From contig JAPPNP010000052.1 of the NCBI GenBank assembly GCA_028873795.1, positions 1 to 50,412 on the forward strand: a stretch of 50,412 bases of DNA, in the 5' to 3' direction. The stretch comes from Chloroflexota bacterium (GTDB taxonomy: Bacteria > Chloroflexota > UBA11872). Of this stretch, positions 33-48,539 are shown in pieces; positions within the stretch are counted from its first letter, which is position 1; each line of letters starts with the position of its first letter. The position numbers and the translations under genes are program-made. The notes beneath the pieces are model-generated. The model was not told the DNA's origin and searched no databases. It saw only the letters and a list, made by a program, of their open reading frames with translations.

Positions 33-205
33 GGGCGGGTCTGAGACCCGCCCCTACCGGATTCTTCAAAGGTCTCCGAAGGCGGGAATCTAGCGGCCCT
101 CAACCTGTTTACCCACGGGGAAGGGCGGTTCGCGAACCGCCCCTACACCTTTTTCAAAGGTCTCCCCCGTATCGAGTACGGGGCAGGCTCTTCGCGGGAA
201 TGACG
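33..205. repeat. Intergenic palindromic repeat mosaic
   Basis: The first 282 bases hold no gene I can support. Three palindromes lie in a row. The first is at 33-53, with 10-bp arms (GGGCGGGTCT) around one base. The second, at 123-142, is a 20-bp perfect palindrome. The third, at 165-183, has arms CCCCGTA/TACGGGG. Bases 87-168 closely match 8440-8518, so this is a dispersed repeat of about 80 bp. Bases 165-205 are a degraded composite palindrome of the kind seen at 41266 and 48250. Confidence 0.75.
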
Positions 206-282
206 AGGGGTTACGCAAAGGTCTCAACCTGCCGGAGTCGTCCAGAACCGATGCGCGCCGCGATCACGGAGCGCGGAACGAT

Positions 283-8257: not shown

Positions 8258-8705
8258 TCACTTCCCCACCGTCATTCCCGAGGAGGGAGACCTTTGCGGA
8301 ATCCACCCGGGCTTGGGGGTGACCGGGCGCATCCTGTCCGCCGCCAGGTTCAATGAGGGGTGGATTCCCGCCTTCGCGGGAATGACGAAGGGTTACGTGA
8401 AGGTCTCCAAAGAGCCTGCCCTGTACTCGATACGGGGCGGGAACCTAGCGGCCCTCAACCTGTTAACCCTCGAGGAAGGGCGGTTCGCGAACCGCCCCTA
8501 CACCTTTTGCAAAGGTCTCTGGGGGCGGGAATCCGGGAACCGCTCAAACGGTGAGCCCACGAGTAGGGGCGGGTCTCAGATTCGCCCTTGCCCGGTGGCC
8601 CAGGCTGCGGGCAGCCTGGGAGATGCGACCCCGGGCCGGTCCCACGCTGCACGCAGCGCGGGCCACCGAGCCAACACCCTGAAGGGCCTTGACGGCCCCG
8701 CACGG
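8258..8705. repeat. Intergenic gap with modular palindromic repeats
   Basis: About 450 bases without a supportable gene. A REP-like palindrome with loop CTTC lies at 8362-8386. A degraded composite palindrome occupies about 8411-8447. A second copy of the roughly 80-bp repeat from the start of the window is at 8440-8518, including a 20-bp perfect palindrome at 8478-8497. A decayed GGGCGGGTCT hairpin lies near 8569-8587. Confidence 0.7.
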
Positions 8706-24524: not shown

Positions 24525-24578
24525 GGTCAAGAGGCGGCGCGGTCGAGTAGCAGGCAATCGCTCAACCGAGTCCCTCCA

Positions 24579-24965
24579 TCACACAGCTTGGATGGGGACG
24601 GGATATTGGGCCAGTCTCTTGTCCGTGGTCAGCAGCATGATGTTCTCAACTTGGGCTTGCGCCATGAGGATCCGGTCGAAGGGGTCGTTGTGAATTGGTG
24701 GCAGGAGGCCGACCGCAAGTGCATGTTCCGAGCGAACTGAAAGCTCGCTGTAGCCGTGGTGAATGAGGCCGTCTCGCAATTGCCGCGGCTCAATGCGAAA
24801 GTCGCTCCTGCCGAGCGCGTTCTTGATGACGACCTCCCAGATGCTGGCCGTGCTGAACACCAGCTCCGCCGCGGGGTTGCCAAGAAGATCTCGAGTCTGC
24901 CGTGTCAACCGCGTCGGGTCGCCCGCCGCCCACAGCAACACCTGGGTATCCAGCAGGTACGTCAC
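24579..24965 (-). CDS. PIN-domain toxin (VapC-like)
   Basis: 128 residues. The PIN core is complete: Asp6 in L-L-D-T-Q-V-L-L-W, Glu44 in S-I-W-E-V-V-I-K, Asp94/Asp97 in N-D-P-F-D-R-I-L, and T-T-D-K near residue 114. It is of the subfamily usually paired with Phd/YefM-type antitoxins. Its GTG start overlaps the stop of the 287-residue upstream gene by four bases (GTGA). That is the usual toxin-antitoxin arrangement, except that the partner is about three times the usual antitoxin size. Probably an RNase that is neutralised by the tail of that partner. Confidence 0.88.
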   Translation of the reverse strand: MTYLLDTQVLLWAAGDPTRLTRQTRDLLGNPAAELVFSTASIWEVVIKNALGRSDFRIEPRQLRDGLIHHGYSELSVRSEHALAVGLLPPIHNDPFDRILMAQAQVENIMLLTTDKRLAQYPVPIQAV

Positions 24966-25825
24966 GCCACTGTCCCGAACATCTGCTCGATCTCGGGTCC
25001 GCCCATGCTGTCGAAGTCGTCGGGGACGTCGATTTGTCCGGCCATGAACCCCAGCCGCGCCGGCGCTGTTTCGTCGGAATCTTCAAAGCCAAACTCACGG
25101 CGCAGGCGGTCATACACGTCCCGCGCCTGTGAACCGCCCCGGGCGACGGCCTCCTCCAACTGCTTCAAGTCCGCCCCGCCGTAGAGCAGATCAACGGTAT
25201 CGACAATGAAGTCTTCGACAAGGGGATCGCTGACGTCGTGCTGCACGGCCCACCGCCAAAACCTCGCCATGCGCTCATCCGCGGGGTGGGGATAGTCTTG
25301 TGGTTGCATGCCCGCAACCGCCCACGGCCTGCCCAGGCGGAAGTAGGGATTGATCGAGTCCTGATAGGGCCACATTTGCAGCCCCGCCATGAGGGCCGCG
25401 CAAATGAACGCCCCGTTGGACGTATAGCGATTGGTCGGCGGCATCCCTGCGTCTCCCTCACGACGCCTACGACGCGCCCGAAAATACGACTCGACTTGGT
25501 GCTTGAGCCCGTAGCTCGAACGTTTCCGCGGGGCCGGCCCGTCGAAGTCACGTGCCCAGCCGCACCCGCGCAGCCGATAGCTCAGCGACACACGCGCCTC
25601 GGCAAAGTACTCGAGCGTGTGGCGAATGCCCGGCTCGCAGTCCCCGCCGGTCCGCAACTCATCACGCGCCGCATCCAAATCGATGGGCGTGGACTTCGAG
25701 AGTCCCAAGCCGTTCGCGTTGAGCAAGGGATGCTCCGCCAGCACCCGCTCGCGTTCCGAGTCAAACAACCCTGGGTCCGAAAGCAAGCGGGCCGCCCGCA
25801 ACCAAAATCGCTGGCTCTTGGTCAT
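24962..25825 (-). CDS. Unknown 287-residue protein with antitoxin-like C-terminus
   Basis: I cannot name this gene. Residues about 100-165 hold S-S-Y-G-L-K-H-Q-V-E and N-R-Y-T-S-N-G-A-F-I-C-A-A-L, a pattern I have seen in uncharacterised proteins, some phage- or plasmid-linked. After a charged helical stretch the last 30 residues (G-F-M-A-G-Q-I-D-V-P-D-D-F-D then G-G-P-E-I-E-Q-M-F) look like the toxin-binding tail of antitoxins that partner PIN toxins. Its stop overlaps the PIN toxin start by four bases. The simplest reading is a fused or oversized antitoxin; a chance tail similarity is possible. No DNA-binding motif was recognised. The start ATG at 25825 is the first in frame. Confidence 0.6.
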   Translation of the reverse strand: MTKSQRFWLRAARLLSDPGLFDSERERVLAEHPLLNANGLGLSKSTPIDLDAARDELRTGGDCEPGIRHTLEYFAEARVSLSYRLRGCGWARDFDGPAPRKRSSYGLKHQVESYFRARRRRREGDAGMPPTNRYTSNGAFICAALMAGLQMWPYQDSINPYFRLGRPWAVAGMQPQDYPHPADERMARFWRWAVQHDVSDPLVEDFIVDTVDLLYGGADLKQLEEAVARGGSQARDVYDRLRREFGFEDSDETAPARLGFMAGQIDVPDDFDSMGGPEIEQMFGTVA

Positions 25826-25943
25826 GATAAACCGCTAGGTGTTTGCGGAAATCCCTGCGGATTATAGATGACAACCAGCCCTTTACTCGAAGTCCCGGGG
25901 GTTATCGGCCTAGGCCGGTGTCGCCGGCCGCCAGAACGACGGT

Positions 25944-26219
25944 CTACCGCTTCTCGGTGAGACGTCCGGACAGGTATTTGTGGATCACGCTGGAGAGCAG
26001 CGTCTGATAGGGAATCCCTTCTTCGCGGGCCCGAGCGTGCGCGAGGTTGAAGTCGCGCTCGGTCACCCGCAAGTTCACGCGCTTGGTCTTGTTGAACGTC
26101 TGGCGCGCCGCCTGACGCGCCGCCTGGATTTCGTCGTCGAGGTTTGAGACCGAACGCCACTCGCCGCGCTCGAATTGGTCGAGGATCTCTCGCTCGTCGG
26201 CGCTCAGCTTGTCGGTCAC
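25944..26219 (-). CDS. BrnA/CopG-like antitoxin
   Basis: 91 residues. A charged N-terminal region is followed by R-V-N-L-R-V-T-E-R-D-F-N-L-A-H-A-R-A-R (about 47-65) and G-I-P-Y-Q-T-L-L-S-S-V-I-H-K-Y (about 69-83). That is the ribbon-helix-helix pattern of antitoxins found behind BrnT-type toxins. It is the second gene, overlapping the toxin stop by four bases (ATGA), in keeping with the toxin-first order of brnTA modules. It should bind the toxin and repress the shared promoter. Confidence 0.83.
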   Translation of the reverse strand: MTDKLSADEREILDQFERGEWRSVSNLDDEIQAARQAARQTFNKTKRVNLRVTERDFNLAHARAREEGIPYQTLLSSVIHKYLSGRLTEKR

Positions 26220-26503
26220 GATGGCTGCCTCCTCCCGTAGTCTCGCGTGGCCTTCCGGCTGGGGATAATCGTCTTCAGGAAGCGAGTGCCGTCGGCCTGC
26301 AGCACGAACGGCACGAGGTAGACGTACGCGTCGATGTCCACGACATACATCAACTGGCCCGGGTAGCGATCTTGGTTCGGGTGCTCCAGCACGTCCATCA
26401 ATCCACCTTGCTCGATGACGGCGACGACGATCTCGAAAGAGACGCCCCGCTGCTCAATCAGTTGTCGATTCTTCTCCGTGCTCCAGTCGAAGCCCGCGTC
26501 CAT
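26216..26503 (-). CDS. BrnT-like ribonuclease toxin
   Basis: 95 residues. F-D-W-S-T-E-K-N near the start, then R-G-V-S-F-E-I-V-V-A-V-I (about 19-30), L-E-H-P-N-Q-D-R-Y-P-G-Q, V-Y-L-V-P-F-V and F-L-K-T-I-I-P-S-R-K-A-T are family hallmarks of BrnT-related toxins with a RelE-like fold. I chose ATG at 26503, since the family begins just before F-D-W; longer frames to 26614 would start upstream of the predicted transcription start. A promoter with TTGACT and TAACGT boxes lies at 26616-26643. Toxin-first order with a coupled antitoxin supports an active module. All conserved blocks are intact. Confidence 0.83.
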   Translation of the reverse strand: MDAGFDWSTEKNRQLIEQRGVSFEIVVAVIEQGGLMDVLEHPNQDRYPGQLMYVVDIDAYVYLVPFVLQADGTRFLKTIIPSRKATRDYGRRQPS

Positions 26504-26615
26504 GCGACAATCATCGCACGATGTGTGCATTATGGCAACACCGCTGCTCGCCTCAGCCATCACCAGCCGCTGCGGATCCAAGGCGCCGTGCGCCACATCG
26601 CGGGTTGAATTCATA

Positions 26616-28305: not shown

Positions 28306-28314
28306 CGTTTCGAC

Positions 28315-28373
28315 CTAGGTCCGCCCCGTCACCGCCACCAGCAGAATCGCCAGGGCGAACGCCGCGATGCCGA
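28315..28373 (-). pseudogene. 3' remnant of a duplicated membrane-protein gene
   Basis: Bases 28321-28373 are identical over 53 bp to 29289-29341, the 3' end of the membrane protein gene at 29283-29564. The reading frame encodes the same last helix (A-F-A-L-A-I-L-L-V-A-V-T-G-R) and stops at 28315, but no in-frame start lies upstream and the rest of the gene is missing. The two copies flank the second vapBC module. Confidence 0.65.
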
Positions 28374-28455
28374 CTATCGCGATGGGCGCCGGGATCTTCT
28401 CTACCGGCTGCGTCGGCCGCGGATCATGGCCAGCGTTGCAGTTCCCATGGCCTGC

Positions 28456-28857
28456 TCAGCCGGCCTTCCCCGCGAGCTTGGCCCCGGCGGCGGCTAGGGC
28501 CTGGTCGAAGGTCATGATCTCTCGCACGCCACGCCGCCTGCAGCTTGCAAGATGGCAGAGGTCTCTGGCGCTCAGGGCGGGCAGCCGGTCATGGAGTTGG
28601 CGGGCGAGGATCACGTCCGCCTCTTCCAGGGGCCACACCTCAACTCCGGCCCTTTCCAACAGTTCCAACGCCGAGTCCAAGGTGTGCGGCCGCTGCATCC
28701 GCAGATAGACGTGCATCAGCTCTTGGATGACCTTGGTGGAGGTGAATAGCGGCTTGCGGTTGCGCAGCGACTCGTCAAAGAACTGCTGGGCGGGAGATTG
28801 CAGCGGGTGCGGCTTCCCGACCGCATACATGAAGACGCTGGTGTCGACGAAGATCAC
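28456..28857 (-). CDS. vapC: PIN-domain toxin (VapC family), second module
   Basis: 133 residues from the GTG at 28857, which overlaps the antitoxin stop by four bases (GTGA). Asp5 in F-V-D-T-S-V-F, Glu46 in V-I-Q-E-L-M-H, Asp98 in S-A-R-D-L-C-H-L and Asp117 in M-T-F-D are the PIN acidic residues. All are intact, so an active RNase toxin is expected. A longer frame from 28914 would run inside the antitoxin and is rejected. It sits between the two copies of a membrane-protein 3' end. Confidence 0.87.
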   Translation of the reverse strand: MIFVDTSVFMYAVGKPHPLQSPAQQFFDESLRNRKPLFTSTKVIQELMHVYLRMQRPHTLDSALELLERAGVEVWPLEEADVILARQLHDRLPALSARDLCHLASCRRRGVREIMTFDQALAAAGAKLAGKAG

Positions 28858-29129
28858 ACGCTGGGCAAGCCGTCGGTCATCGATTCGTGGAGTGTCTGGA
28901 GGTGCTCGTGCCAATCCGGTTCCACGCCGGGCCCTTCACGCGCCGCGCAGGTGTCGAAGAACCGCCGCAGGTCCTCCGGCGACTCGAACCGTTCCCTGCG
29001 TTGCCGCGCCTCGAGCCGCTCACGCGCGGCGGCCCTGAGCCACGCGCTGAACGTCAGGCCCTCCCGGCGGGCCTGGCGGACGAAGCGGTCGCGGTCCTCG
29101 TCCGGAATGATGAGCTGGACCCTCGCCAC
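28854..29129 (-). CDS. vapB: Ribbon-helix-helix antitoxin, second VapB
   Basis: 91 residues. The N-terminal strand A-R-V-Q-L-I-I-P, then the helix region D-R-D-R-F-V-R-Q-A-R-R-E-G-L-T-F-S-A-W-L (about 11-30) form an RHH DNA-binding fold. The C-terminal half, with D-W-H-E-H-L-Q, would bind the toxin. The start is GTG at 29129 with GAAGG upstream. It is coupled to the PIN toxin by a 4-bp overlap. An inverted repeat TGTGTA/TACACA at 29157-29175 upstream is the likely operator. Confidence 0.83.
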   Translation of the reverse strand: MARVQLIIPDEDRDRFVRQARREGLTFSAWLRAAARERLEARQRRERFESPEDLRRFFDTCAAREGPGVEPDWHEHLQTLHESMTDGLPSV

Positions 29130-29175: not shown

Positions 29176-29282
29176 TCGGATGGACCGACGTCAACGTCCG
29201 TGGTGAACTCGTCGGGCGCCCACAAGGAGAGCCCCTACTCGGGCTTGCGCGGCCGCGACGTAGACCTCGCACGCCCGCTTGT

Positions 29283-29564
29283 CTATGCCCGCCCCGTCAC
29301 CGCCACCAGCAGAATCGCCAGGGCGAACGCCGCGATGCCGATGGCCGTCGCCGCGGCCGTCCCGACGATGATGGGCCTGAGCGAGCCCCGCGACTCCGAT
29401 CCGACGCGAAGCCCCAGGAATCCGGCAAGCGCCACCACGACCGCGATGGTGACCGCGCCGGCGGCGCGCTGGTTGTCGATCAGGAAGTAGACCGCCACCG
29501 CCACGGCCGCGAAGGCCGCCGCGCAGACGACCGCGATGCGCGCCCGGCGCGCTTCGAAACGCAT
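29283..29564 (-). CDS. Small membrane protein, unknown
   Basis: 93 residues from ATG 29564, with basic residues at the start (R-F-E-A-R-R-A-R), which fits a cytoplasmic N-terminus. Three hydrophobic segments are seen (about 10-28, 35-52 and 68-90). No family is recognised. The last 53 coding bases are duplicated at 28321-28373. It is on the minus strand, divergent from the TPP enzyme gene at 29657, and lies upstream of the second vapBC module. Confidence 0.5.
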   Translation of the reverse strand: MRFEARRARIAVVCAAAFAAVAVAVYFLIDNQRAAGAVTIAVVVALAGFLGLRVGSESRGSLRPIIVGTAAATAIGIAAFALAILLVAVTGRA

Positions 29565-41075: not shown

Positions 41076-41420
41076 ACCTGCCGCGAACGGGGCGGGCTCT
41101 GTCCCGCCCCGCGCGGCAGCCGATCCGGTTGCCGCGGTTCAGCCCGGTTCCCGCTCCCCCGTCCGGTCCCTTCACCCTCAGGAGACCGTTGCAAAACCCG
41201 GTAGAGAGGGGTCTGCGACCCGCCCGACGCCAAGCGTCCGCCGCGCCTCCAGATTCGACCGGACTGGATTCCGGCCCCGTATCAAGTACGGGGCAGGCTC
41301 TCCGCCGGAGTGACGGAGGGGTTATGCAAAGGTCTCCTCAGGGAGAGGGAGGGTGAGGGATCCGGCGTCCCAAACCTCCGCCCGCGTGGGGGCGTCCTGT
41401 GGGCGCCCGGCCCTTGGCCG
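41076..41420. repeat. Intergenic gap with a nested palindrome
   Basis: No gene is supported. A composite palindrome lies at 41266-41315: outer arms GGATTCCGG and CCGGAGTGACG enclose an inner palindrome CCCCGTA/TACGGGG (41275-41293) plus CAGGCTC. A GGGTCTGCGACCC hairpin is near 41207-41225. GGGAGAGGGAGGG follows near 41341. Confidence 0.65.
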
Positions 41421-48094: not shown

Positions 48095-48539
48095 CGTCAT
48101 TCTACCCGTTGGCGGTTCTGAAAACCCTAGTTCTCGGCGTTTGGCCGTGGGTGTGTTTGATTGGTGAGCCGCGAAACCCCTCACCCCAACCCTCTCCCCG
48201 TGGGAGAGGGAGAAGAGGGTCTCCCCGTGGAGACCTTTGCGTAACCCTTCGTCATTCCCGCGAAGAGCCTGCCCCGTACTCGATACGGGGCGGGAATCCA
48301 CCCTTCAGTGAACCTGGGGGCGGACAGGATGCGCCCGGTCATCCCCAATCCCGGCTGGATTCTGCAAAGGTCTCCCGTGGGAGAGGGAAAAGAAGGTCCC
48401 CCGTGGGAGAGGGAGAAGCTGGGGGCTCTCCTTCGGGGGAAAGGAAGCTGATCAAACTCGCCCACCAACCGGCGCATGAGCGGCCGCAGCAACCACGCCC
48501 GGTGTTGACAACCTGACGCCCACCCCGTTCGATGCGGCC
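48095..48539. repeat. Intergenic gap with a nested palindrome
   Basis: About 445 bases without a supportable gene. A composite palindrome at 48250-48299 has outer arms CGTCATTCCCG and CGGGAATCC around an inner palindrome CCCCGTA/TACGGGG (48272-48290). CCTCTCCCCGTGGGAGAGGG near 48192-48211 is a further hairpin and is echoed near 48375 and 48398. The flank GCGTAACCCTTCGTCATTCC is shared with the palindrome at 1142. Confidence 0.65.

Follow-up and report, generated by a model that had tools for sequence, protein, structure and literature searches.

A PIN toxin gene coupled to an oversized partner with a Phd-type tail and a predicted winged-helix domain in Chloroflexota

In the window (the whole 50,412-nucleotide stretch of Chloroflexota DNA analysed here), a PIN toxin gene lies directly behind a gene for a much larger protein of which only the C-terminal end resembles an antitoxin, raising the question of what this partner is and what the rest of it does. 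The original prediction proposed a sensor-antitoxin fusion whose N-terminal domain detects a trigger, perhaps phage. We examined the two proteins, referred to here as the fusion and the PIN protein, together with their relatives in the phylum, in plasmids and in viral contigs.

A two-gene cassette and its C-terminal tail

The ORF coordinates (Table 1) bear out the predicted overlap, with the 3´ end of the fusion gene and the start of the PIN gene sharing four bases. The identity of the 128-residue protein as a PIN protein comes from a Pfam scan (E 9e-13), and residues D6, E44, D94, D97 and D115 are invariant acidic positions in a comparison of seven relatives. Upstream of the fusion, the -10-like element is common to two relatives. 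The palindromes in front of the start codon were not significant as single sites when compared with shuffled sequence (P 0.05-0.46), and they were therefore left out of the evidence. The 287-residue protein had no match in Pfam, NCBIfam, PADLOC or PHROG, and neither it nor the PIN protein matched a PADLOC defence-system model.

Table 1. Features of the fusion/PIN locus (window coordinates)
Feature	Position	Strand	Basis or remark
Antitoxin-like fusion protein, 287 aa, ATG start	24962-25825	minus	ORF list
PIN (VapC-type) toxin, 128 aa, GTG start	24579-24965	minus	ORF list, PF01850
Fusion residues 1-60: N-terminal helices including the LxxxPxLxxNGLGLS motif, common to stand-alone relatives	25646-25825	minus	
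Fusion residues 61-165: predicted winged-helix-type domain, phage/plasmid SSYxLKH...SNGxFI family	25331-25645	minus	Homology; fold of 79-aa phage member, Foldseek
Fusion residues 166-256: helical linker, low model confidence, partly disordered	25058-25330	minus	AlphaFold model
Fusion residues 257-287: Phd/YefM-type toxin-neutralising tail, RLGFMAGQIDVPDDFDSMGGPEIEQMFGTVA	24965-25057	minus	Tail homology
TATAAT, -10-like element, 41-36 bases before the fusion ATG	25861-25866	minus	Consensus match only
Two imperfect palindromes AAWCCC..GGGWTT, candidate operator	25850-25863, 25829-25844	minus	Just 5´ of start codon
Presence/absence unit: fusion and PIN, nothing else	24532-25942		Cleanly missing in same-genus genome G001

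The last ~30 residues had been called antitoxin-like on account of a VPDDFD motif (residues 267-272), and this assignment held up: residues 257-287 correspond to the C-terminal end of Phd antitoxins whose genes adjoin those of VapC, and they are homologous to the Phd/YefM tails that accompany VapC/PIN toxins. A tblastn search of 72,556 plasmids returned 124 records; among the matches listed, the alignments covered the C-terminal region, and those with an annotation were Phd/YefM-type antitoxins. The match on Novosphingobium plasmid pSA3 is an 81-residue Phd followed by a VapC toxin gene, again with a four-base overlap. In a blastp alignment of the fusion with this Phd, 22 of 29 tail residues were identical (RLGFMAGQIDVPDDFDSMGGPEIEQMFGT versus RLGFMSGQFTVPDDFDRMGGDEIEQLFGS), while similarity on the N-terminal side of the tail was marginal. 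The AlphaFold model of the fusion has a disordered stretch at residues 248-265 (pLDDT < 50) and a terminal helix at 276-284, as expected for a free antitoxin tail.

The body of a Phd antitoxin is another matter. The Phd/YefM fold normally dimerises and binds the operator, and Phd represses with the toxin bound. Pfam gave no match to this fold (PF02604) in the 287-residue protein at E <= 1, and 12 Phd matches above the cut-off were found elsewhere in the genome. A degenerate Phd body may survive in residues 217-256, in which case the tail would not be a pure graft.

A phage and plasmid domain family at the N-terminus

The SYGLKH (residues 104-109) and SNGAFI (136-141) motifs, singled out in the original prediction, are real and form the signature of the family to which the N-terminal domain belongs. 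When residues 58-206 were used as a tblastn query against plasmids, hypothetical proteins with the same motifs were found in Janthinobacterium (7e-4), Streptomyces, Mycolicibacterium and Flavobacterium, and wider relatives occur in Actinobacteria, Proteobacteria, Bacteroidota, Bacillota and Cyanobacteria. Viral contigs scanned with an alignment of six diverse family members yielded at least 173 relatives, of which 80 were retained; scans of the viral contigs with an alignment of the fusions alone or with a single protein (P0001) yielded none. Among the ORFs of the retrieved loci, a profile built from viral members only recovers the fusion copies at 1.6e-10 to 1.1e-6. A PDB sequence search returned no relative, and a literature search for the motif SYGLKH found no paper. 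A match in G096 (E 0.0037, L009) and weak matches in the phylum were not counted as relatives, as no motif was seen in those read.

In alignments, the family core consists of (R)KTIN, SSYxLKHxxE, Y(I/V/T)xNGxFIxAAxxxGF and NxxFN. The fusion contains SSYxLKHxxE, Yx(S/T)NGxFIxAA and NxxFN in order, the last one reading NPYFR, and retains the family's invariant residues; an upstream LxxxPxLxxxG motif is present in the longer members, the fusion included. The shortest stand-alone members are 77 residues long, and several stand-alone relatives match PHROG 9576 or 17839, both of unknown function. Some members are larger, at 375-426 residues (L063:471-1751 and L052:2713-3840), and come from a viral contig and from a plasmid of Azospirillum. 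Their N-terminal (VKSSHRVEAMARGFGW-like) and C-terminal regions are conserved and of unknown function; the L063 protein had no Pfam match. No PIN of the kind in the window and no such tail were found at 93 loci with a non-fusion member.

The neighbourhoods of the viral members point to phage replication. Among 105 neighbour proteins of 33 non-redundant viral members, 14 matched an exonuclease PHROG, two DNA helicase PHROGs were matched nine and eight times, and several DNA polymerase PHROGs seven times each, all as raw counts. Because of these exonuclease, helicase and polymerase genes nearby, we place the family in phage replication modules.

The fold was approached through a 79-residue phage member (L132), for which a model was predicted with a pLDDT of 93. 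Its order of helices at 3-15, 28-39 and 45-55 and strands at 16-27, 59-61 and 68-74 corresponds to a winged-helix topology. PDB neighbours of this model in Foldseek were mostly winged-helix proteins (Fur, RosR, PerR, PadR, AspA and BlaI), at weak E-values (best 0.03), and matches among viral models included phage and giant-virus primases and helicases. The model of the full 287-residue protein is of medium confidence (mean pLDDT of 67), with values below 50 at residues 78-97 and 166-180, and has helices at the places corresponding to L132; used as a Foldseek query it gave weak matches only. The N-terminal core of the fusion is a putative winged helix. The idea that this half is an enzyme was rejected, since the conserved K, H and E residues would fall within the second helix of a small winged-helix fold.

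Pairing with PIN across the phylum and the chromosomal site

With the PIN protein as query, 400 genomes of the phylum yielded 32 places at E <= 1e-22, spread over 29 genomes, and the gene 5´ of PIN was read at 30 of these places. The partner was an ordinary Phd in 23 cases, the fusion in six and a decayed fusion remnant in one. The two unread places hold paralogues resembling the copy in genome G005 (45% identity to the query) and for this reason were taken as Phd-linked, so that 25 of the 32 PINs probably accompany an ~80-residue Phd. All six intact fusions, including the window copy, belong to one Chloroflexota family (genera g1 and g2), and three of them have a 19-residue insertion after residue ~43. 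Every one of these full-length relatives adjoins a PIN gene, and the four-base overlap is kept in all six genomes; the possibility named in the original prediction as a refutation, that homologues of the large protein never lie next to PIN genes, thus does not hold. An assembly artefact was ruled out, given that six separate genome assemblies agree.

The closest PINs outside the family, in G204 and G046 (53% PIN identity), have classical ~80-residue Phds with the same tail ending. Because these nearest outsiders carry such Phds, we conclude from the sequence comparison that the toxin lineage was originally partnered with Phd and that one clade swapped the Phd body and kept the tail. Values of dN/dS were 0.15-0.24 for the fusion, 0.14-0.29 for its residues 61-165 and 0.21-0.34 for PIN, low enough to indicate that both genes are maintained by purifying selection. 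With the pair and its overlap intact in six genomes in addition, the arrangement is not due to chance. The remnant, in G012 (L007, G012:C167), has a tail that runs out of frame into the PIN gene, whose start is lost; ORFs that by eye are DUF4160-like and DUF2442-like stand in front of it.

The pair occupies an identical chromosomal place in four genomes of genus g1. In G001, of the same genus, both flanks are contiguous and only the fusion and PIN are missing. The two genes are present or absent together, as one cassette. In G003 the same point is filled by ~11 kb of sequence (L174:2338-13567) carrying HsdR and HsdS of a type I restriction-modification system, along with PIN genes and an HNH gene. 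In genus g2 the pair is at another chromosomal site, and in one genome of that genus (G018) a PemK/MazF toxin and a PD-(D/E)XK nuclease are near it. From its contents in G003, the place occupied in genus g1 resembles a hotspot at which defence and toxin-antitoxin genes are exchanged.

The window contains other features as well. Directly upstream of the cassette is a second toxin-antitoxin pair (25944-26614, minus strand). Its toxin, at 26216-26614, is BrnT-like (PF04365 below cut-off), and the partner at 25944-26219 is a ribbon-helix-helix protein; G001, which is missing the fusion and PIN, retains sequence that matches this region. A third pair (28456-29129, minus strand) has a PIN toxin (28456-28914) that overlaps a ribbon-helix-helix antitoxin (28854-29129), and in G008 a region homologous to it is no more than ~0.5 kb away from the fusion cassette. 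Repeats with a length of ~60-130 bases are dispersed over the window (119-225, 1103-1273, 8410-8534, 28312-28391, 29255-29358, 41215-41338 and 48220-48320) and occur in both orientations and also in G003 DNA, possibly as a family of short repeat elements.

Proposed mechanism, alternatives and known systems

We consider it probable (roughly 70%) that the pair is a Phd-VapC-like type II toxin-antitoxin module whose antitoxin has had its DNA-binding half replaced by a winged-helix domain. The PIN protein would be the toxin, presumably a metal-dependent RNase, and the last ~30 residues of the fusion would be a flexible tail of the Phd type, which folds onto the toxin to obstruct the active site. 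The Phd/YefM fold would be gone, its place taken by a winged helix embedded in extra helices; this domain would most likely bind the operon's own promoter and repress with the toxin bound, as Phd does. The GTG start and the four-base overlap would couple translation of the toxin to that of the antitoxin. More speculatively, the additional domain could provide a further input, such as competition by phage DNA or by a homologue from a phage. With a winged helix predicted for the core, binding DNA and controlling the operon would be a simpler role than that of a sensor; a phage-sensing role for the N-terminal domain is possible. What stands of the original prediction is thus an antitoxin tail on a large, unrelated N-terminal domain paired with PIN, while the suspected link to phage was found in another form, namely that the domain's family is phage- and plasmid-encoded.

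These observations can be read in other ways. The winged-helix half could mainly mimic or contact a phage replication component and not regulate the operon, in which case, during infection, the phage homologue, phage DNA or a phage nuclease or helicase partner would displace or destabilise the fusion and free the PIN RNase, with abortive infection as the result. The abundance of the domain in viral contigs beside phage exonuclease, helicase and polymerase genes agrees with this, as do the preservation of the family's invariant residues in the fused protein and the variable, toxin-antitoxin-rich site, where one genome holds a type I restriction-modification system and another nothing. A plain winged-helix regulator, however, covers the same data in fewer steps, and we regard this alternative as rather unlikely. 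We find it decidedly unlikely that the antitoxin captured a winged-helix protein of a phage replication module as bait, such that the phage copy or replicating DNA engages or displaces the domain, the tail frees the PIN RNase and infection is stopped; if true, the sensor of this toxin-antitoxin system would be related to a protein from viral replication modules.

The C-terminal end leaves room for two further readings. The last ~80 residues could be a whole, diverged Phd, making the fusion a two-module protein composed of an ordinary Phd and an extra N-terminal DNA-binding domain. By blastp, residues 208-285 do align to a full Phd (41% over 79 residues), including ADLKQLEEAVARG against THLSRLIERAAKG. 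Nearly all of the identity is confined to the tail, however, and along with the missing PF02604 match the AlphaFold model, at low confidence, has helices over residues 181-245 and not the Phd beta-sheet, which makes a complete Phd very improbable. Alternatively, a phage/plasmid-family regulator acquired a Phd tail by chance, a different Phd of the genome neutralises PIN, and the fusion is a decaying relic. The out-of-frame remnant in G012 and the wealth of Phd antitoxins in the genome (~12) would fit such decay, but the fusion is intact in six genomes of two genera, the overlap is conserved and dN/dS is low in the N-terminal part, the tail and PIN alike; we hold this account to be extremely doubtful.

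If the pair is indeed a Phd-VapC-like module with a replaced DNA-binding half, it would be a natural case of antitoxin domain swapping, in which one clade retained only the tail and exchanged the DNA-binding half. The analysis also attaches a structural label, a predicted winged helix found beside phage replication genes, to a large unnamed family of phage and plasmid proteins, and makes it directly testable whether domains borrowed in this way bind operators or sense phage.

The fusion/PIN pair shares with Phd/YefM-VapC modules the PIN subfamily, the upstream antitoxin gene with a four-base overlap and the C-terminal tail. Antitoxins of those modules have ~80 residues, whereas the fusions have 287-306 and contain a winged-helix-type domain instead of a Phd/YefM match. 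A Phd-type tail on a folded accessory domain has a precedent in PanA-DocD6 of Corynebacterium doosanense, where the Phd-C tail borne by Panacea neutralises Doc and suffices for this when placed on SUMO, and where it was argued that an antitoxin needs no more than a linear neutralising motif joined to a DNA-binding domain (Ernits et al., 2023, PMC10440598). The accessory domain, the proposed sensor in that study, is Panacea and the toxin Doc, whereas here the toxin is a PIN protein and the domain, of winged-helix type, comes from a phage family that has no name; Pfam found no Panacea domain in the fusion. Oversized antitoxins that include a winged-HTH part and are encoded next to a PIN toxin are also known, as COG2442 and winged-HTH fusions adjoining PIN were described in a 2009 comparative analysis (PMC2701414) and Rv2018 (VapB45) was shown experimentally to neutralise Rv2019 (VapC45) (PMC5175181). 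The antitoxin domain of those proteins is COG2442/DUF433, for which Pfam gave no match in the fusion. PHROG 9576 and 17839 are matched by stand-alone relatives of the N-terminal domain and not by the fusion itself, and those relatives are without an antitoxin tail or such a PIN neighbour. The fusion would work in a similar manner to these proteins. Lacking Panacea, COG2442 and a Phd fold match, it belongs to neither the PanA nor the COG2442 type, and the fusion/PIN pair is a new arrangement of known parts.
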